Shown piece by piece: positions 22,898 to 31,294 of a DNA stretch of 33,096 bases; within the stretch, counting starts at the first letter, position 1; the number at the start of each line of letters is the position of its first letter. The stretch comes from Alistipes sp. (GTDB taxonomy: Bacteria > Bacteroidota > Bacteroidia > Bacteroidales > Rikenellaceae), in assembly GCA_017481925.1 (NCBI GenBank), contig JAFUOK010000039.1:1-33096 (forward strand), given 5' to 3'. The notes beneath the pieces are model-generated. The model was not told the origin of the DNA. It searched no databases and was given only the letters and a program-made list of their open reading frames with translations. A program made the translations under genes and the position numbers.

Positions 22898-24514
22898 ATG
22901 AATCGAAAATATGTTATCGGCATCGACTTCGGAACCGACTCGGTGCGAGCCCTCATAGTGGCAACCGACAATGGCGAGGAGTTGGCCTCAGCCGTTTCGG
23001 CATATCCACGCTGGAGCAAGGGACTATACTGCAATCCCAAAGTAAACCAATATCGTCAGCACCCACAGGACTACATCGACTCGCTCACCGAGGCGGTGCG
23101 TGAGGCCGTGGGGCAGTGCAGCGATGAGGTACGCCTCGGCATCGTGGGTCTTTCGTTCGACTGCACCGCATCGACACCCGTGCTGACCGACAAGGATGGT
23201 ACGCCGTTGGCAATGCTGCCAGAATTTCAGGAGCACCCCGACGCAATGTTTATCCTATGGAAGGACCACACCGCCATTGCAGAGTCGGACAAGATAAACG
23301 AAGTGGCCAAACGCTGGCACACCGACTACACCCGTTACGGTGGCGGCAACCACTCGTGCGAGTGGGTATGGGCAAAGATGTTGCACTCGCTGCGCGTAGC
23401 ACCCGAGCTACGTGAGAAGGCCTACTCGTGGATGGAGCATTGCGACTGGATCAGCGCCTTGCTTTCGGGCGACACCACACCCGAACGTATTGCCCGCAGT
23501 CGCTGTGCGGCAGGTCATAAGGCTATGTGGCACGCCGATTGGGGCGGTATGCCCGAGTGGGAGTTCTGGGACGAGGTAGATCCTTTGCTTCAGGTATTTA
23601 AGGGGCATCTGTTCGAGCAAACCTTCACCAGCGATAAGAGCGCAGGAGGACTCTGCCGCGAGTGGGCCGAGCGTCTTGGCTTGAACGAAGGCATAGCCGT
23701 TGGCGTAGGTGCTATCGACTGCCATGTGGGAGCGGTAGGAGCCGGCGTACGGGATAATGTATTGGTAAAGGTTATGGGCACCTCGACGTGCGATATTACC
23801 ACAGCCGCCTACGACGTTATCGGCTCGCACACCGTACGTGGAATATGTGGTCAGGTGGATGGCTCGGTGCTTCCCAACCGCATAGGTTTTGAGGCCGGAC
23901 AGGCCGCCTTTGGCGATATATATGCGTGGTACAAGCGACTGTTGGGTTGGAGTCTGAAACATGTTGCCAACGCCCCCGAGTTGGAGGACAAAATCCTTGC
24001 ATCACTCACCGCCGAGGCCGAGCAACTCCCCTTGAGCGAAGATGATATGATAGCCGTCGATTGGTTCAACGGTCGTCGCTCTCCCGACGATGATCCGTTG
24101 GCTACGGGCTCGCTACTCAACCTTACGCTTGCCACATCAGCACCCGAGATTTTCAAGGCTCTGGTCGAGGCTACGGCCTTCGGCTCTCGAGCCATCAACG
24201 AGCGTTTGGCTGACGAGGGCTTGCGCATCGACACTATCCTTGCCGTGGGTGGCATATCGAAGAAATCGCGTTTTGTGATGCAGACTATGGCCGACGTTAT
24301 AGGTCTGCCCATCCGCGTGGTGCGTAGCACGCAGGCGTGCGCCCTGGGCTCTGCGATGAATGCCTCTGTAGCAGCTGGAGCACACCCCTCGGTCGAGGCG
24401 GCACAGGATGCTATGTCGTCGGGCTTTGATGGGGAATATACGCCCAATGCCGAGCGTCACGCCATATATAATAAGTTGTACGCCCGCTACCGCCGAGCAG
24501 CCTACGGAGAGTAG
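22898..24514 (+). CDS. araB: Ribulokinase (FGGY family)
   Basis: AraB phosphorylates L-ribulose to L-ribulose-5-phosphate in arabinose catabolism. The 538-residue protein has the N-terminal phosphate-binding motif GIDFGTDSVRALIV, the AraB-like YPRWSKGLYCNPKVNQYRQH segment split over residues 37-56, the substrate region CTAS and ARSRCAAGHKAMWH, and the second-domain ATP motif AVGGISKKSRFVMQ. Length fits AraB. No araA, araD, transporter or regulator is adjacent, so it is an orphan here with its own promoter. Another FGGY pentulokinase is the alternative but less likely. Confidence 0.9.
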   Translation: MNRKYVIGIDFGTDSVRALIVATDNGEELASAVSAYPRWSKGLYCNPKVNQYRQHPQDYIDSLTEAVREAVGQCSDEVRLGIVGLSFDCTASTPVLTDKDGTPLAMLPEFQEHPDAMFILWKDHTAIAESDKINEVAKRWHTDYTRYGGGNHSCEWVWAKMLHSLRVAPELREKAYSWMEHCDWISALLSGDTTPERIARSRCAAGHKAMWHADWGGMPEWEFWDEVDPLLQVFKGHLFEQTFTSDKSAGGLCREWAERLGLNEGIAVGVGAIDCHVGAVGAGVRDNVLVKVMGTSTCDITTAAYDVIGSHTVRGICGQVDGSVLPNRIGFEAGQAAFGDIYAWYKRLLGWSLKHVANAPELEDKILASLTAEAEQLPLSEDDMIAVDWFNGRRSPDDDPLATGSLLNLTLATSAPEIFKALVEATAFGSRAINERLADEGLRIDTILAVGGISKKSRFVMQTMADVIGLPIRVVRSTQACALGSAMNASVAAGAHPSVEAAQDAMSSGFDGEYTPNAERHAIYNKLYARYRRAAYGE

Positions 24515-24686: not shown

Positions 24687-26168
24687 ATGTTACGAAAACT
24701 GCGAATCATCGCCGCCACAATCTTCTTTGCGCTGATCACGCTCCTGTTCCTCGACTTCTCGGGAACACTGCATGCGTGGTTTGGCTGGCTGGCAAAAATC
24801 CAATTCCTTCCGGCTGTAATGGCCCTCAATGTAGGAGTCATTGTGTTACTCGTTGCCCTGACGCTCCTCTTCGGACGTGTCTATTGTTCTGTCATCTGCC
24901 CCTTGGGTGTGATGCAGGATGTGATTGCATGGATGGGCAAGAAGAGCAAGAAGAATCGTTACACCTACTCTCCTGCGAAGACCTACCTTCGCTACGGAGT
25001 GCTGGCGTTGTTCGTAGTTCTGATGGTTGCAGGTTTTGCTTCGATTGCAATACTCGTTGCTCCGTACAGCGCATTTGGTCGTATCGCACAGAACCTCTTT
25101 GCGCCCCTCTACGCCTGGGGTAACAACCTGCTGGCTTACTTTGCCGAGCGTGCCGACAGCTACACATTCTACTCAACCGACGTAGTGATTGGCAGCATTG
25201 GCACATTTGCCGTGGCAGCCGTAACGTTTGTTGTAGTAGCCGTATTGGCTTGGCGCAATGGTCGTACATATTGTAACACGATCTGCCCCGTAGGTACTGT
25301 TCTGGGTGCATTGTCACGCTTCTCATTGCTAAAGCCCGTGATCGACACCGACAAGTGTATCAACTGCAACATCTGCTCGAAGAACTGCAAGGCCGCTTGT
25401 ATCGATATTCCCAACCACGCAATCGACTATAGCCGTTGCGTGACATGTATGAATTGTATCGAGAAGTGCCCCAAGAACGCTATCTCTTATACCCGTCGCT
25501 CGACCGTGAAGACAGCAGAGGCAAAGCCCGCTGCAGAGACCAACACCGCACGTCGCAACTTCCTCATCGGCGCAGGTCTGGTAGCCGCCGAGGCTGTTCG
25601 CGCACAGGAGATGCGTGGTGATGGCGGTTTTGCCGTTATCCTGGATAAGCAGGCTCCCGACCGTGAGAATCCTCTCACACCTCCGGGTTCACGCAGCTTC
25701 CGCAACCTTACACAGCACTGCACGGGCTGTCAGTTGTGTGTAGCCGTATGTCCTACGAAGGTTCTGCGTCCGTCGGCTGACCTGAAGTCGTTTATGCAGC
25801 CTACGATGTCGTACGAGCAGGGCTACTGCCGTCCCGAGTGTAACAAGTGCTCGCAGGTATGTCCCGCAGGTGCTATCAAGCCTATCACGGTGGAGGAGAA
25901 GTCGTCAATTCAGATTGGCCACGCCGTATGGGTTAAGAAGAACTGTATCGTTGTTGCCGACGATGTAGATTGTGGCAACTGCGAGCGTCACTGTCCCACA
26001 AAGGCCATCACCATGGTACCGCTCGATCCCGCGAACCCCGAGTCTCGCAAGATTCCTACCGTGAACGACAGCCTCTGCATCGGTTGCGGTGCGTGTGAGA
26101 ACCTCTGTCCCTCACGACCTTTCAGTGCAATATATGTAAAGGGTTATCAGAGTCACCTTCGTTACTAA
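24687..26168 (+). CDS. NapH-NapG-like fused membrane iron-sulfur protein
   Basis: This 493-residue protein appears to join two electron carriers. Residues 1-215 are a NapH/NosR-type membrane part with about four helices and two Cys-x3-Cys-Pro motifs (C67/C71 and C196/C200). Next is a double [4Fe-4S] ferredoxin domain (C224-C227-C230-C234, C251-C254-C257-C261). At 288-307 there is an internal twin-arginine signal, ARRNFLIGAGLVAAEAVRAQ. The C-terminal part resembles Tat-exported NapG/MauM ferredoxins with four cluster motifs (C345-C355, C381-C392, C420-C436, C464-C474). NapGH-type pairs pass electrons from menaquinol to the periplasm. The fusion and cluster count are read from sequence; the role is inferred. 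It is the first gene of an operon, 10 bp before the aldo/keto reductase. Confidence 0.85.
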   Translation: MLRKLRIIAATIFFALITLLFLDFSGTLHAWFGWLAKIQFLPAVMALNVGVIVLLVALTLLFGRVYCSVICPLGVMQDVIAWMGKKSKKNRYTYSPAKTYLRYGVLALFVVLMVAGFASIAILVAPYSAFGRIAQNLFAPLYAWGNNLLAYFAERADSYTFYSTDVVIGSIGTFAVAAVTFVVVAVLAWRNGRTYCNTICPVGTVLGALSRFSLLKPVIDTDKCINCNICSKNCKAACIDIPNHAIDYSRCVTCMNCIEKCPKNAISYTRRSTVKTAEAKPAAETNTARRNFLIGAGLVAAEAVRAQEMRGDGGFAVILDKQAPDRENPLTPPGSRSFRNLTQHCTGCQLCVAVCPTKVLRPSADLKSFMQPTMSYEQGYCRPECNKCSQVCPAGAIKPITVEEKSSIQIGHAVWVKKNCIVVADDVDCGNCERHCPTKAITMVPLDPANPESRKIPTVNDSLCIGCGACENLCPSRPFSAIYVKGYQSHLRY

Positions 26169-26178
26169 ACTTACAGCT

Positions 26179-27549
26179 ATGAAAAAGACAAACAACAATA
26201 TAGATCGTCGCGAGTTCCTCAAGCGCATGGGCGCAGGCTCGCTCCTTACGGCTGCTGCCTTTACAGGCTGTAAGCCCAATGATTTGAAGATTGACCCCTC
26301 GGTCGTTCACGGCGAGATTCCCACCGACAAGATGACCTACCGAATGAATGAGCGCGTAGGCGACAAGGTATCTATCTTGGGTTACGGATGTATGCGCTGG
26401 CCCTTCCTCGAGGATGGCACAACGCTCGATCAGGAGACTATCAATGAGTTGGTAGATTATGCTATCGCTCATGGTGTCAATTACTTCGACACCTCACCCG
26501 TATATTGCCAGACCAAGTCGGAGGAGGCTACTGGTATAGCACTGAGCCGCTATCCGAGAAATAGCTACTACCTGGCAACCAAGATGTCGAACTTCTCGAA
26601 TTGGACCTTCGAGAACTCGAAGCTCATGTACGAGCGTTCGATGCGTCTGTTGCAGACCGATTATTTCGACTACTACCTGCTACACAACATCTCATCTATC
26701 GAGATGTTTAACGCCCGCTTTATCGACAACGGCATCCTCGACTACCTGATCAAGGAGCGTGAGGCAGGCCGCATCCGCAACCTCGGATGGTCGTTCCACG
26801 GTGTGCAGGAGGTCTTCGACCACGTACTCACATATCACGACAAGGTGCATTGGGACTTCGTGCAGATTCAGATGAACTACCAGGATTGGCGCAACGCCAG
26901 CCAGGGACGTAACGTGAATGCCGAGTACCTCTACGCCGAGTTGGAGAAGCGCAATATCCCCGTAGTGATCATGGAGCCTCTGCTGGGTGGTCGTCTGTCG
27001 AACGTTCCCAACCATATCTCGGCTCGTCTGAAGCAGCAGGAGCCCGAGCGCAGCGTTGCTTCGTGGGCTTTCCGCTTTGTGGGTTCTTATCCCAGAGTGC
27101 TTACCGCACTAAGTGGCATGACCTACATGGAGCACTTGCAGGATAACATCCACACGTTCGCACCATTGAAGGAGCTGACGCAGGAGGAGAAGGAGTTCTT
27201 GTTCGAAACAGCCGACCTTATGGCTCACTATCCCACGGTGCCGTGCAACGACTGTAAGTATTGTATGCCTTGTCCCTACGGTGTGGATATTCCGGGTGTA
27301 TTGTTGCACTACAACAAGTGTGTCAATGAGGGTAACCTCTCGGACTCTTCGCGCGACGAGAACTACGTCAAGGCACGCCGTGCGTTCCTCGAGGGTTACG
27401 ACCGTGCGGTGGAGAAGGAGCGTCAGGCGTCGCACTGTACGGGCTGTAAGGAGTGTAACTCTCACTGCCCGCAGCGCATCAACATTCCGCGGGAGTTGCA
27501 GCGCATCGACAAGTACATCGAGGACCTGAAGCAGGGACGTGAGTTTTAA
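26179..27549 (+). CDS. Tat-exported aldo/keto reductase with C-terminal iron-sulfur domain
   Basis: This 456-residue protein starts with a twin-arginine signal (DRREFLKRMGAGS, 9-21), hydrophobic stretch and a possible lipobox ending at Cys31. Residues 60-330 form an aldo/keto reductase barrel with the complete tetrad Asp104, Tyr109, Lys135 and His169. The C-terminal domain has two ferredoxin motifs (C356-C359-C362-C365 with C381 nearby, and C420-C423-C426-C430P). Aldo/keto reductases normally use cytosolic NADPH. Export by Tat in folded form and the attached clusters suggest electrons come from the fused NapHG-like partner encoded upstream. The physiological carbonyl substrate is unknown. It is followed 3 bp later by the DUF1893 gene. 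Confidence 0.87.
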   Translation: MKKTNNNIDRREFLKRMGAGSLLTAAAFTGCKPNDLKIDPSVVHGEIPTDKMTYRMNERVGDKVSILGYGCMRWPFLEDGTTLDQETINELVDYAIAHGVNYFDTSPVYCQTKSEEATGIALSRYPRNSYYLATKMSNFSNWTFENSKLMYERSMRLLQTDYFDYYLLHNISSIEMFNARFIDNGILDYLIKEREAGRIRNLGWSFHGVQEVFDHVLTYHDKVHWDFVQIQMNYQDWRNASQGRNVNAEYLYAELEKRNIPVVIMEPLLGGRLSNVPNHISARLKQQEPERSVASWAFRFVGSYPRVLTALSGMTYMEHLQDNIHTFAPLKELTQEEKEFLFETADLMAHYPTVPCNDCKYCMPCPYGVDIPGVLLHYNKCVNEGNLSDSSRDENYVKARRAFLEGYDRAVEKERQASHCTGCKECNSHCPQRINIPRELQRIDKYIEDLKQGREF

Positions 27550-27552
27550 GAT

Positions 27553-27972
27553 ATGACGCGCGAGCAAGCAATAGAACTCCTGCACTCATCGCACTGTTCG
27601 TGTGTGATAGTAAACTCCACGCGCGTGGAGCAATTCCACGCGCGTGGAGTGAAGGACCTGCATCGCCTGCTACACGACGATAGGGCTCTGCTCGACGGAG
27701 CCTTCATCGCCGACAAGGTGGTAGGCAAGGGCGCCGCAGCGCTGATGGTTGCAGGTGGAGTACGAGAGGTCTATACCGACGTGATAAGTCGGGGGGCGCT
27801 CTCACTCTTCACGCAAAGCGGGGTAGAGGTGGAGTTTGGTCTGCTTGTAGAGAATATCATCAACCGCACGGGCACGGATATATGCCCCGTCGAGAAGTTG
27901 TGCCTACAGTGCCTCACGGCCGAGGAGTGCCTGCCGCTGATTGACGATTTTATAGAACAAATGAACAGATGA
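27553..27972 (+). CDS. DUF1893 domain protein
   Basis: This 139-residue cytoplasmic protein has no signal or membrane segment. Features I associate with DUF1893 are the CVIV strand near residue 17, the RGVKDLHRLL segment (34-43), the LDGAFIADKVVGKGAAALMVAGGV core (52-75), and a C-terminal CPVEKLC motif followed by EECLPLIDDFI. The family has a cytidine deaminase-like fold but no proven reaction known to me; Cys residues near the end could bind metal. It lies within the redox operon, 3 bp after the aldo/keto reductase and overlapping the next gene by 4 bp. A striking double palindrome lies in its 5' part (27614-27650). Confidence 0.8.
   Translation: MTREQAIELLHSSHCSCVIVNSTRVEQFHARGVKDLHRLLHDDRALLDGAFIADKVVGKGAAALMVAGGVREVYTDVISRGALSLFTQSGVEVEFGLLVENIINRTGTDICPVEKLCLQCLTAEECLPLIDDFIEQMNR
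27614..27650. repeat. Double GC-rich palindrome inside the DUF1893 gene
   Basis: CTCCACGCGCGTGGAG (27615-27630) is a perfect 16-bp palindrome. The core CCACGCGCGTGG recurs at 27636-27647, and the 37-bp unit is itself an inverted repeat (15-bp arms 27614-27628 and 27636-27650, 7-bp spacer). It codes for STRVEQFHARGV without breaking the frame. It could form alternative hairpins or a protein site. Confidence 0.9.
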
Positions 27973-28592
27973 CAAGGATTGCAACATACCTCACCGCCGT
28001 GGCGCTGCTTGTTGTTGCAACAGCCTGCACGGGCGACAGCACGCGAGAGCGCATACGTCAATCGGTGGAGCGTCAGATGGATCGCTATCCGCACTCGACA
28101 CTTCGCGACCTGTACAAGAACTACTTTCAGGATCGCTTCGGGCCCGGACACATCATCGCCGACGAGAAAGCTGCCGATAACTACCTGCGCTACGAGTTGG
28201 AGAATGCGGCCACGATGGAGGGCGACGACTACGAACCTACGGGCTACGAGGAGCGCTTTATGCGAGTAAACCTCAGCGTAATAGCCGACGGCAGAGTGCC
28301 TTACGACAAGTACCTCAGCGCATTTGTGCGTAGCGTGAATGGCATTGAGCCTATCACCATCGAGCAATGGCGCGAGGAGTGGAAGGTAATCGACGAGGTC
28401 ATAAATGAGATGAATCTCAACCTGCCCGACTATGAGGCCGACCGCGCGGAGATATGGGCATTGTTGGAGCGAGGGGAGTATGTTATGCACCACAGCAAAC
28501 TCTTTGAGCAGCACTACGATCCGCACTATCGCATCATCGAGCGAGAGATATTCCAGCGAGAGATACTACCGCTCATAGAGCAAAAAAGATAA
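27969..28592 (+). CDS. Conserved Bacteroidetes lipoprotein of unknown function
   Basis: This 207-residue protein has a lipoprotein signal (MTRIATYLTAVALLVVATAC, lipid Cys20). The mature part is alpha-helical and charged, with the segments YPHSTLRDLYKNYFQDRFGPGHI (57-ish onward), DDYEPTGYEERFMRVNLSV, AFVRSVNGIEP and YDPHYRIIEREIF. I recognise this as a conserved but unnamed family in Bacteroidetes; no reaction is known to me. His, Asp and Glu are frequent and could bind metal. The ATG overlaps the DUF1893 stop (ATGA), so it is translationally coupled and belongs to the redox operon. It would act in the periplasm, as the aldo/keto reductase probably does. Confidence 0.72.
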   Translation: MTRIATYLTAVALLVVATACTGDSTRERIRQSVERQMDRYPHSTLRDLYKNYFQDRFGPGHIIADEKAADNYLRYELENAATMEGDDYEPTGYEERFMRVNLSVIADGRVPYDKYLSAFVRSVNGIEPITIEQWREEWKVIDEVINEMNLNLPDYEADRAEIWALLERGEYVMHHSKLFEQHYDPHYRIIEREIFQREILPLIEQKR

Positions 28593-28630: not shown

Positions 28631-28656
28631 CATCGTAATTTAATTTTTTTACGATG
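28631..28656 (+). promoter_or_regulatory. Hairpin covering the superoxide dismutase start codon
   Basis: CATCGTAA (28631-28638) pairs perfectly with TTACGATG (28649-28656), whose last three bases are the ATG. The start codon would be buried in an 8-bp stem with a 10-nt AT-rich loop, which could limit translation. Confidence 0.5.
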
Positions 28657-29304
28657 AAAATACTTATCTTTACAATGTTATTGCTCGGCACGTCCGCCTC
28701 GTGGGCGCAGGAGAGGGTCACAGAGTATGAGTATATCACTCTGCCTTATGCGCTCGACGCTTTGGAGCCTGCGATAAGCCGCCGCACGATGGCACTGCAC
28801 TACGGCGAGCATCTGCGCTCGTATGTGGAGAACCTGAACAGGCTTATCAAGGGTACGGCTATGGAGGGCGAGACGTTGGAGGATGTGGTGCTGATGGCCG
28901 AGGGCCCGCTACTTAACAATGCGGGGCAGACGCTGAACCACAACCTCTACTTCCTGCAATTCTCACCTTCGGGTGGGGGTGAGCCGTCGGGAGCACTCCG
29001 CAGGGCGATCGTCCGCCGTTGGGGCTCGGTCGATAACTTCCGGCTGGCTATGGAGGAGGCCGCCCGCACGCTCTTCGGATCGGGATGGGTGTGGCTCACG
29101 GCTGATGGGGCTGGCAACCTATACATCCTGCAGGAGGCAGGCGGACTGAACCCCGTGCGACGCGAGTTAAGACCTCTGTTGGGTTTTGATGTGTGGGAGC
29201 ACGCCTACTATTTGGATTATGAGAATCGACGTAAGGACCATGTGAATGCCTTGTGGCAGATAGTGAGTTGGCCCGTCGTGGAGAAAAGATTTGAGAATAA
29301 TTAA
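28654..29304 (+). CDS. Exported Fe-type superoxide dismutase
   Basis: This enzyme dismutates superoxide to oxygen and peroxide. The 216-residue protein has a signal peptide (MKILIFTMLLLGTSASWAQ), so it acts in the periplasm. Metal ligands are all present: His49 (ALHYGEHL), His96 (GQTLNHNLYF), Asp179 and His183 (DVWEHAYYLDY). Gln92, four residues before His96, occupies the Fe-type (or cambialistic) position. Most bacterial Fe/Mn enzymes are cytosolic, so export is unusual, and one active-site-region His is replaced (HYGEHL where HYGKHH is usual). It follows the redox operon by 61 bp and precedes the ECF gene by 19 bp. Confidence 0.9.
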   Translation: MKILIFTMLLLGTSASWAQERVTEYEYITLPYALDALEPAISRRTMALHYGEHLRSYVENLNRLIKGTAMEGETLEDVVLMAEGPLLNNAGQTLNHNLYFLQFSPSGGGEPSGALRRAIVRRWGSVDNFRLAMEEAARTLFGSGWVWLTADGAGNLYILQEAGGLNPVRRELRPLLGFDVWEHAYYLDYENRRKDHVNALWQIVSWPVVEKRFENN

Positions 29305-29323: not shown

Positions 29324-29836
29324 ATGCAGACAACAAGCATTAAACTCTACTCGTTGAACTACAACGAAACAAAGACCTACATCACTGCAGCGCTCTTTAT
29401 TTTGGGCAATATCGCTCTGCCGCAGATTTGCCACCTTGTACCCCAGGGCGGTATGATTTTGTTGCCCATCTACTTCTTTACGCTTATTGGCGCATATAAG
29501 TATGGATGGAAGGTTGGTCTTTTGACTGCCGTACTCTCACCCGTTGTGAACCACCTGCTCTTCGGTATGCCCGCAGCAGCCGTATTGGTTCCCATCTTGG
29601 CTAAATCTACAATCTTGGCCATTACAGCAGGCTATGTAGCATCACACTATCGCAAGGTATCACTCTCACTCATCGCCACTGTTGTGTTTGCATATCAGAC
29701 CATAGGCGGTCTGTTCGAGTGGGCCTGGACGGGTAGCATCGACGCCGCATTGCAGGACTTCAGCCTGGGTATCCCTGGTATGTTGTTGCAGATCGTTGGC
29801 GGTTACCTCTTCATCAAGTATCTGTTGAAGAAGTAA
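29324..29836 (+). CDS. ECF transporter S component
   Basis: This 170-residue integral membrane protein has five or six hydrophobic helices, with YITAALFILGNIALPQICHL near residue 19, then GMILLPIYFFTLIGAYKYGW and VLVPILAKSTILAITAGYVA. This matches substrate-binding S components of energy-coupling factor vitamin/cofactor transporters; which ligand is bound cannot be read. EcfA/EcfT genes are not adjacent, as in group II systems. It follows the dismutase gene by 19 bp and ends at a terminator. Confidence 0.83.
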   Translation: MQTTSIKLYSLNYNETKTYITAALFILGNIALPQICHLVPQGGMILLPIYFFTLIGAYKYGWKVGLLTAVLSPVVNHLLFGMPAAAVLVPILAKSTILAITAGYVASHYRKVSLSLIATVVFAYQTIGGLFEWAWTGSIDAALQDFSLGIPGMLLQIVGGYLFIKYLLKK

Positions 29837-30010: not shown

Positions 30011-31294
30011 TTACTTCACCTGCACGGGGGAATTGACGGTCGAAACGTAGCCCGTGCCATCCTTGACATAGGCATAGACACGATAGTTACCAGCCTCCGA
30101 AATCTTTATCTCGGCCGTAGGAGCAGTGGTAGTGAAGACCTCGCCATAACGCTCGGGGCGTGGCTCATACGAACCGCCAAAACCCAACACCGTAGCCTCG
30201 TGCAGCACCTCCCAAATATAGGTCAGATTCTCCTGCTCACGATCCGTGGCCGCGACATCCACTTTGAAGGCCTTGCCCGCCTCTACGGTAGGGCTCTCCA
30301 CGGGCGCCTTGCCGTCAATCTTAATGCCCGTAACTACGGGTGCGGTCTGAGTAGGCTCTGTGCCACTCCACACACGCTGCATAGCCTCCACCATAGGTGT
30401 CTTCTCGCCATCGAGGGGCAGACCCTCCACCTCACGCTCGACGAACATGCTGAACCACGTTGGCGTGCGCTCCTCCTTCTGTCCCCAGAGGAATACGAAC
30501 GAGCCGATGCAACGCTCATCGCCCAGCACAGCGCCATTGTAGCGGCTCTCATATACCTGACGCTTCTCCTCGCTGGTCTGCTCGATTGAGGCCTCCCACG
30601 TGGTCTTGTCGGTCTCCCACCAACCCGTAGGACCCCACTCGGTAATCATATAAGGGCCTTCGTAATCGGACTCGGCAACCATATCCTTCACCTCGAGGAT
30701 AGGGCCATAACTATTGATTCCCACAACGTCGAGCGACGGCGCATAGCGTGCGATAGAGTCCAGCGCACTCTTGTCGTGCGAGATGACGGTAGATACCAAC
30801 TGACGTGGTGCAATCTCCTTGATGGCCACGGCCAACTCCTCGATAAAGCCCCACACGGCTGCACCGTTAGCACCACTCAACTGCACCTCGTTACCGATGC
30901 CCCAACAGAAGATATTGGGATCGTCCTTGAAGGTGGTAGCCAACTCACGGCACTGCTCGAGCGTCTTTGCCTTCCACTCCTCATCGACATACTTCTCGCC
31001 ATCCTTCGGCAACGATATGCCCTGCATCACACGCATACCATTCTCGGCCGCCAAAGCCGATGTGCGCTTCACGCTCTCGATGTTTCCGCCCCACGTGCGG
31101 CAGGCATTGGCACTTGCCGATGAGGCCACTTCCAGGCGATTGGTGCCACCCACACCCTTGATGAACGTAGGCTCGCCATCAATACGCAGCTCGAAACCTG
31201 CGCCTCGTTTCGTAATCACAGCACCCTGCTCAGGCGCACAAGCCACAACGCCCATTAAAGTAACAGCAACAAAAAAGGTATTTATAAATTTCAT
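30011..31294 (-). CDS. Lipoprotein glycoside hydrolase with (beta/alpha)8 barrel
   Basis: This 427-residue protein has a lipoprotein signal (MKFINTFFVAVTLMGVVAC, lipid Cys19). The barrel resembles the TIM-barrel domain of GH2/GH5-type clan A enzymes. Likely acid/base is Glu136 in CWGIGNEV, and the nucleophile is Glu219 in MITEWGPTGWW, both at the ends of the expected strands 4 and 7. The C-terminal region (about 315-427) is an Ig/PKD-like beta domain. Substrate is unknown; a surface or periplasmic beta-glucanase-like role is possible. It stands alone, with no SusC/D nearby. A hairpin terminator of the neighbouring lipoprotein lies upstream. Confidence 0.78.
   Translation of the reverse strand: MKFINTFFVAVTLMGVVACAPEQGAVITKRGAGFELRIDGEPTFIKGVGGTNRLEVASSASANACRTWGGNIESVKRTSALAAENGMRVMQGISLPKDGEKYVDEEWKAKTLEQCRELATTFKDDPNIFCWGIGNEVQLSGANGAAVWGFIEELAVAIKEIAPRQLVSTVISHDKSALDSIARYAPSLDVVGINSYGPILEVKDMVAESDYEGPYMITEWGPTGWWETDKTTWEASIEQTSEEKRQVYESRYNGAVLGDERCIGSFVFLWGQKEERTPTWFSMFVEREVEGLPLDGEKTPMVEAMQRVWSGTEPTQTAPVVTGIKIDGKAPVESPTVEAGKAFKVDVAATDREQENLTYIWEVLHEATVLGFGGSYEPRPERYGEVFTTTAPTAEIKISEAGNYRVYAYVKDGTGYVSTVNSPVQVK

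Follow-up and report, generated by a model that had tools for sequence, protein, structure and literature searches.

A putatively exported iron-sulfur aldo/keto reductase and a NapH-NapG-type polyferredoxin as a candidate trans-membrane electron-transfer pair in Bacteroidales

The window analysed here, a stretch of 33,096 nucleotides from Alistipes sp. (Rikenellaceae, Bacteroidales; assembly GCA_017481925.1, contig JAFUOK010000039.1), encodes an aldo/keto reductase (AKR) that carries a twin-arginine translocation (Tat) lipoprotein signal and a C-terminal iron-sulfur domain, and directly before it a polyferredoxin (PFD) in which a NapH-like and a NapG-like part are fused. Across genomes AKR and PFD form a conserved and specific unit. 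We give a probability of roughly 0.5 to the reading that they are a dedicated trans-membrane electron-transfer pair, in which quinol would supply electrons to a periplasmic AKR; this reading is supported by their adjacency, their co-occurrence, the presence of tat genes in some of the gene runs and a single switch of partner. Enzymes of the AKR family are normally cytoplasmic and use NAD(P)H. If our reading is correct, gut bacteria possess an unrecognised quinone-linked periplasmic redox enzyme, and an AKR has been moved out of the NAD(P)H-bearing cytoplasm. The pair is spread over major gut genera, including Bacteroides, Phocaeicola, Parabacteroides, Alistipes, Odoribacter, Barnesiella and others.

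Pairing of the reductase with the polyferredoxin

A profile scan of genome contigs for AKR gave at least 593 confirmed stretches, the best 80 of which are referred to as the named loci. PFD adjoins AKR on the same strand in 73 of these 80 (before AKR in 71 and after it in two), and the genomes of the other seven carry PFD elsewhere (E <= 2.0e-248). When 61 relatives were searched, a strong PFD (E <= 1e-80) was present in 29 and a strong AKR (E <= 1e-200) in 23. All 23 strong-AKR genomes were among the 29 with a strong PFD, the two genes being adjacent in 22 and on separate contigs in one (G054). Genome G016 combines PFD with a divergent AKR (3.8e-132), and no AKR match at E <= 1e-20 was found in the PFD genomes G038, G042, G049, G050 and G059. 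Locus L112, from a metagenome-assembled genome labelled Paenibacillus sp., has a typical Bacteroidales PFD-AKR pair; its organism label is probably wrong.

PFD also occurs with a different partner. In a phylum-wide set of 296 genomes (of the 50 listed, three are from the same order, the window's own included), PFD was found in 30, again counting the window's own (E <= 1e-40), and AKR in the window's genome only (E <= 1e-30; the rows shown score no more than five candidates for each genome). In 27 of the 29 other PFD loci, the strand that encodes PFD also carries a DUF362 gene no more than 0.7 kb away from it; the two exceptions are L057, which has a different neighbour, and L063, which ends at the contig end. 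The DUF362 family (PF04015) was confirmed with Pfam in three loci (L175, L181 and L190), and the L181 protein passes the NCBIfam Tat-signal model. All ten DUF362 genes among the matches listed start with an RR motif. An alternative partner of this sort would be expected if PFD were a modular donor. The DUF362 proteins share with AKR an N-terminal RR signal and the position next to PFD, and the family to which they belong is another; for one of them, a comparison with solved structures gave no match at the thresholds applied.

One change of partner is seen in a PFD tree of 74 rows, with the AKR group on one side of a branch with support 100/90, in a sampling that keeps a third of the named loci, a minority of the window's near relatives and, with the window row itself dropped, L195 (87% identical). 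Three of the rows are without a group, L025 is the same sequence as L192, the branches of L057, L025, L056, L211 and L050 are long, and the midpoint root serves for drawing only. PFD has probably swapped its partner once, and since, within the order, the AKR-type rows are nested inside the DUF362-type ones, DUF362 would be the older partner. A swap from DUF362 to AKR on one donor provides two systems for comparison. According to passages of PMC11770544, DUF362 falls in the same Pfam clan as the lactate racemase family LarA/DUF2088; as a speculation, AKR and DUF362 may both be hydride-handling folds.

Architecture and predicted export of the two proteins

The earlier note on this DNA, made from its letters, had described PFD as a NapH-like part joined to a NapG-like part through an internal twin-arginine. 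Indeed, NapH-type NCBIfam models (TIGR02163/PRK09477) match residues 167-275 and NapG-type models (PRK09476/TIGR00397) match within residues 284-475, so that the two flank RR289, the N-terminus of the NapG profile aligning at residue 284. The scores are far under the curated cut-offs (78.1 vs 234 for NapH and 63.1 vs 269 for NapG), and PFD is therefore not a NapH or NapG equivalog. Its 29 cysteines comprise six four-Cys sets (C224/227/230/234, C251/254/257/261, C345/348/351/355, C381/385/388/392, C420/429/432/436 and C464/467/470/474), two CX3CP motifs (C67/C71 and C196/C200) and C238. All 29 columns are invariant, each in 27/27 or 28/28 of the homologs with a letter at that column, so the motifs counted previously are not only present but fully conserved.

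Two of the four-Cys sets and the four cysteines of the CX3CP pairs lie before RR289 and four sets after it, the number of clusters being judged from the motifs. Hydropathy places hydrophobic segments at about residues 1-32, 34-76, 96-131 and 161-192. Lys and Arg abound in the loop between the second and third segments but not in the one that follows the third, and by the positive-inside rule these charges would put the two CX3CP pairs, together with the first two clusters, in the cytoplasm. The predicted topology thus has two clusters in the cytoplasm and four in the periplasm. The internal RR, loss of which among homologs would have spoken against the earlier description, is kept in the 38-row PFD alignment (R289 in 37/38 and R290 in 38/38), and a motif search in a wider PFD set of 105 rows, in which four genomes appear twice, returned RR in 93, KR in seven, RK in four and none of these in one. 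The segment that follows is weakly hydrophobic: its Kyte-Doolittle mean over 14 residues is 1.62, compared with peaks of 2.32-2.87 over 19 residues in the four segments before it. Lys/Arg occurs after RR at position 305 in 28/38 rows and at position 310 in 29/38.

Proteins of this kind are known. Polytopic polyferredoxins assembled via both Sec and Tat are the subject of Tooke et al. 2017 (eLife 6:e26577, PMC5449189), passages of which describe an MLMS-1 protein as NapH fused with NapG, assign three clusters to the inside and four to the outside of the polytopic polyferredoxin, state that a polyferredoxin of such layout needs two translocases, and present NapGH as the quinol dehydrogenase complex of periplasmic nitrate respiration; the word 'aldo' is absent from the text of that paper. 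PFD shares with the polyferredoxin described there the NapH-NapG fusion, a twin-arginine that immediately precedes the last hydrophobic segment, the positive charges after that segment and, as predicted here, clusters both inside and outside the membrane. Unlike it, most of the Bacteroidota PFDs examined have a conserved A-Q, and their partner is AKR or DUF362. With NapGH, PFD has in common the domain order, the CX3CP pairs and the cluster motifs; it differs in being a single polypeptide, in having an AKR as its neighbour and in scoring far below the cut-offs of the NapH and NapG models. The earlier claim that no such system had been described fails for the fusion and, within the literature searched, stands for the AKR-PFD pair. 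No literature was found on this pair or on an exported or ferredoxin-dependent AKR, the spelling 'aldo/keto' not being searchable. The donor is of a known kind, and the same literature contains no description of its partner, an iron-sulfur AKR that bears an export signal.

The short segment after the internal RR ends in Ala-Gln (A306 in 37/38 rows and Q307 in 34/38). Substrates of Bacteroidota signal peptidase I follow a Q-rule, a small residue at -1 and then Gln, according to passages of PMC5837995, in the text of which the words 'Tat' and 'twin-arginine' do not appear. As a control in the same loci, the Q-rule pattern was present in 45/126 putative signal peptides vs 5/126 mature stretches. 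Because the conserved Ala-Gln resembles these sites, it is plausible that the AKR-linked PFD is cut into two proteins after export; alternatively, the segment would be a fifth, uncut one. Speaking against a general rule, A/S-Q is present in 87/104 rows of the wider PFD set and is missing in five of the 11 PFD rows from loci without AKR.

The window AKR matches PF00248 (Aldo_ket_red) with 114.7 bits (cut-off 24). Its tetrad of D104, Y109, K135 and H169 is present in 22/22 homologs, is invariant in a 46-row alignment and is in register with solved AKRs, the nearest of which include L-galactose dehydrogenases as well as bacterial AKRs. Unlike the PF00248 enzymes with which it shares the barrel family and the tetrad, the window AKR has a Tat-lipoprotein signal and a C-terminal domain for two 4Fe-4S clusters. 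The C-terminal cysteines 356/359/362/365 and 420/423/426/430 are kept in 21/21 homologs; the first set is spaced x2-x2-x2, vs the classical x2-x2-x3. The iron-sulfur domains of the window AKR lie just under the Pfam cut-offs, and Fer4_9 and Fer4_17 are matched by 46/46 AKR rows, the window's among them, at E<=0.01. Twenty PDB sequences (E<=1e-8) align only within AKR profile positions 40-347. At the N-terminus, RREF, a hydrophobic stretch and C31 make up the pattern of a Tat-exported lipoprotein. This signal recurs in the named loci, with RR in 77 and the lipobox Cys (loose pattern) in all of the 78 readable N-termini, those of the other two loci being unreadable. Among the 22 homologs the motif is RR in 17, RG in three, RK in one and RA in one, and Pfam TAT_signal is matched in 18/46 AKR rows, the window AKR not among them. 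The intact tetrad, the Tat signal and the two ferredoxin motifs had all been recognised before; the lipobox had been missed.

Related AKRs of other kinds were also seen. L066 (3653-4777), L107 (9021-10136) and L214 (6032-7156) carry a signal-less ferredoxin-type AKR directly 3' of the AKR with the export signal, without a Lys at the tetrad position in the alignment (the L107 row includes a false N-terminus). A fourth signal-less AKR, in L080, looks like another kind of fusion. These four proteins from the same loci are 23-25% identical to the window AKR. A second, divergent AKR-PFD pair is present in L192 and L193, both of the same genus; its AKR is 38-41% identical to the window's and has TR or SR in place of RR in the signal.

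Genes for the Tat translocase accompany some of the pairs. Of the 80 named loci, 63 of which have at least 5 kb downstream, 13 have tatA-tatC as same-strand genes downstream of the pair, TatC being confirmed with Pfam in two, and this linkage points to the AKR-PFD pair as an important Tat client in these bacteria. A link with Tat is also favoured within the genus, where TatC is present in 16/17 genomes with PFD vs 10/20 without it (Fisher p=0.004). In the window's own draft genome tatC is on another contig (L194, 5687-6943); its 418-aa product has a long extension past the TatC domain, which ends at residue 248, and similarly long open frames are present in G001, G014 and G036.

Proposed electron route and its alternatives

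In the route we propose, Sec would insert the NapH-like half of PFD, which would keep its two ends in the cytoplasm and exchange electrons with the menaquinone pool, while the NapG-like half would be passed through Tat at the internal RR, reside in the periplasm and possibly be cut free after A306. AKR would fold with its clusters in the cytoplasm, be exported by Tat and be held by a lipid anchor on the periplasmic face of a membrane. Electrons would then run from quinol through the NapH-like clusters, the NapG-like clusters and the two clusters of AKR to the barrel, in which a carbonyl compound would be reduced. We infer the topology, the export and the electron route; the direction, the substrate and the working of the barrel, in which either a firmly held NAD(P) relays hydride or no nucleotide takes part, are guesses, and the chemistry is the least certain step. 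A fuller version of the proposal is doubtful, if possible: that AKR works independently of free NAD(P)H, fed from the membrane through the iron-sulfur chain, that it was recruited once in Bacteroidales in place of DUF362, and that signal peptidase cuts its donor in two, leaving the NapH-like part in the membrane and releasing the NapG-like ferredoxin.

Several observations weigh against a quinol-fed periplasmic AKR. In four relatives its signal has RG in place of RR (L007, L008 and L009, all of the same genus, and L067); L023 has RK there, and the paralog L025 has RA. From AKR structures and the alignments with solved chains, we place S205, Q231, G313 and N323 at the usual dinucleotide site. 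These residues show no variation across the 46 rows, which equals the conservation of the tetrad and speaks for a bound nucleotide; that AKR binds NAD(P) is quite possible. No flavin or other converter between two-electron and one-electron steps was recognised in the AKR-PFD pair. The comparison of TatC within the genus ignores phylogeny and draws on incomplete genomes; half of the PFD-free genomes retain TatC, hence Tat has other clients. Finally, with standard potentials of about -74 mV for menaquinone, about -197 mV for acetaldehyde/ethanol and about -360 mV for gluconolactone/glucose, transfer from menaquinol to an ordinary carbonyl would be uphill, whereas the oxidation of a sugar by menaquinone would be downhill.

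These potentials make electron flow in the reverse direction a serious rival. AKR would then oxidise alcohols or sugars in the periplasm and pass the electrons by way of its clusters and PFD to menaquinone, where they could serve fumarate respiration, for instance; its best solved relatives do include L-galactose dehydrogenases, by name sugar-oxidising enzymes. No substrate gene was identified, however, and the nearest characterised relative, NapGH, is a quinol dehydrogenase with outward flow in the passages of Tooke et al. 2017; overall, we regard the reverse direction as possible, on the doubtful side. The energetic difficulty would also disappear if quinol were replaced by a low-potential cytoplasmic ferredoxin docking on the cytoplasmic cluster pair, with PFD as a wire from ferredoxin to the periplasm. 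Two conserved four-Cys clusters are indeed predicted to be cytoplasmic, yet NapH, too, has cytoplasmic clusters and belongs to a quinol dehydrogenase (Tooke et al. 2017, in the same passages), and we consider this arrangement unlikely. The neighbourhood clustering covered open reading frames (ORFs) of 70 aa or more, so that a linked ferredoxin gene may have been missed.

It is more improbable still that AKR, with a non-exchanging NAD(P), is a standalone periplasmic two-substrate dismutase resembling glucose-fructose oxidoreductase, to which the clusters and PFD are mere accessories. Tat is able to export proteins with a bound cofactor and the residues of the dinucleotide site are invariant, but so are the cluster cysteines of AKR, and PFD was present in every strong-AKR genome checked (23/23 and 80/80). 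We give hardly any credence to an ordinary cytoplasmic, NAD(P)H-dependent AKR with a coincidental RR and lipobox: the four relatives with RG would fit it, and the RR (77/78) and lipobox Cys (78/78) of the named loci, the TAT_signal matches (18/46 rows) and the tatAC genes in 13/80 runs argue against it.

Neighbouring genes

The four plus-strand ORFs described in the earlier note are spaced by 10 nt, 3 nt and then a 4-nt overlap, and the same-strand run continues beyond the end of that note (28592) to 29836 with genes for a superoxide dismutase and an ECF-S-like protein (Table 1).

Table 1. Features of the gene run and its surroundings (positions in the window)
Feature	Positions	Strand	Length	Remarks
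Sugar kinase	22898-24514			Pfam; 172 nt upstream of the run
NapH-NapG fusion polyferredoxin (PFD, gene 1)	24687-26168	+	493 aa	
Internal twin-arginine segment of PFD, residues 289-307	25551-25607	+		A306-Q307 similar to sites cut by signal peptidase I in Bacteroidota (putative)
Aldo/keto reductase (AKR, gene 2) with Tat-lipoprotein signal and C-terminal two-cluster 4Fe-4S domain	26179-27549	+	456 aa	
Tat signal and lipobox of AKR (R10, R11; C31)	26179-26271	+		residue conservation in relatives
DUF1893 / TM1506-family protein	27553-27972	+	139 aa	Pfam
Small lipoprotein	27969-28592	+	207 aa	no Pfam family
Fe/Mn-type superoxide dismutase	28654-29304	+		signal-peptide-like N-terminus (by eye); nearest model SOD [Fe], below cut-off
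ECF-S-like membrane protein	29324-29836	+		weak PF12822, below cut-off
Next long ORF 3' of the run	30011-31294	-		

The expectation that all four genes co-occur across Bacteroidales held for AKR and PFD only, and the four as one conserved unit were rejected. The lipoprotein, without a Pfam family at E<=0.01, is in none of the 80 named loci and in four of 20 relative regions; among the fetched regions it is confined to part of the genus and is lineage-specific. DUF1893 (PF08973, 160.7 bits) follows AKR within 1.5 kb in 34 of the 72 named loci with room for it. It is a frequent companion and, since it is also present in genomes without AKR, not a subunit or core component. No export signal was seen in the DUF1893 protein, which matches TM1506 (1vk9) and 9e9a, for neither of which a function is named, and a search for 'DUF1893' found no papers. 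In L225, L226 and L227, from genomes without an AKR match, DUF1893 lies between genes that by eye are symporter-like and nitroreductase-like.

The superoxide dismutase has a signal-like stretch that ends in Ala-Gln and is probably periplasmic. In two of 20 relative regions, those of L195 and L196, its gene likewise follows the pair, making it a lineage-specific companion. The ECF-S-like gene is within 3.5 kb of AKR in 19 of the 65 named loci with room and also accompanies the DUF362-type PFD in L181; neither this protein nor the lipoprotein matched a solved structure at the thresholds applied. A TonB-dependent receptor recurs with DUF1893, and often with the ECF-S-like gene, in L126, L116, L113, L119, L209 and L215. 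The best NCBIfam name for the L126 receptor is TonB-B12, at a score far below the cut-off, and the linkage suggests uptake of a small cofactor-like compound.

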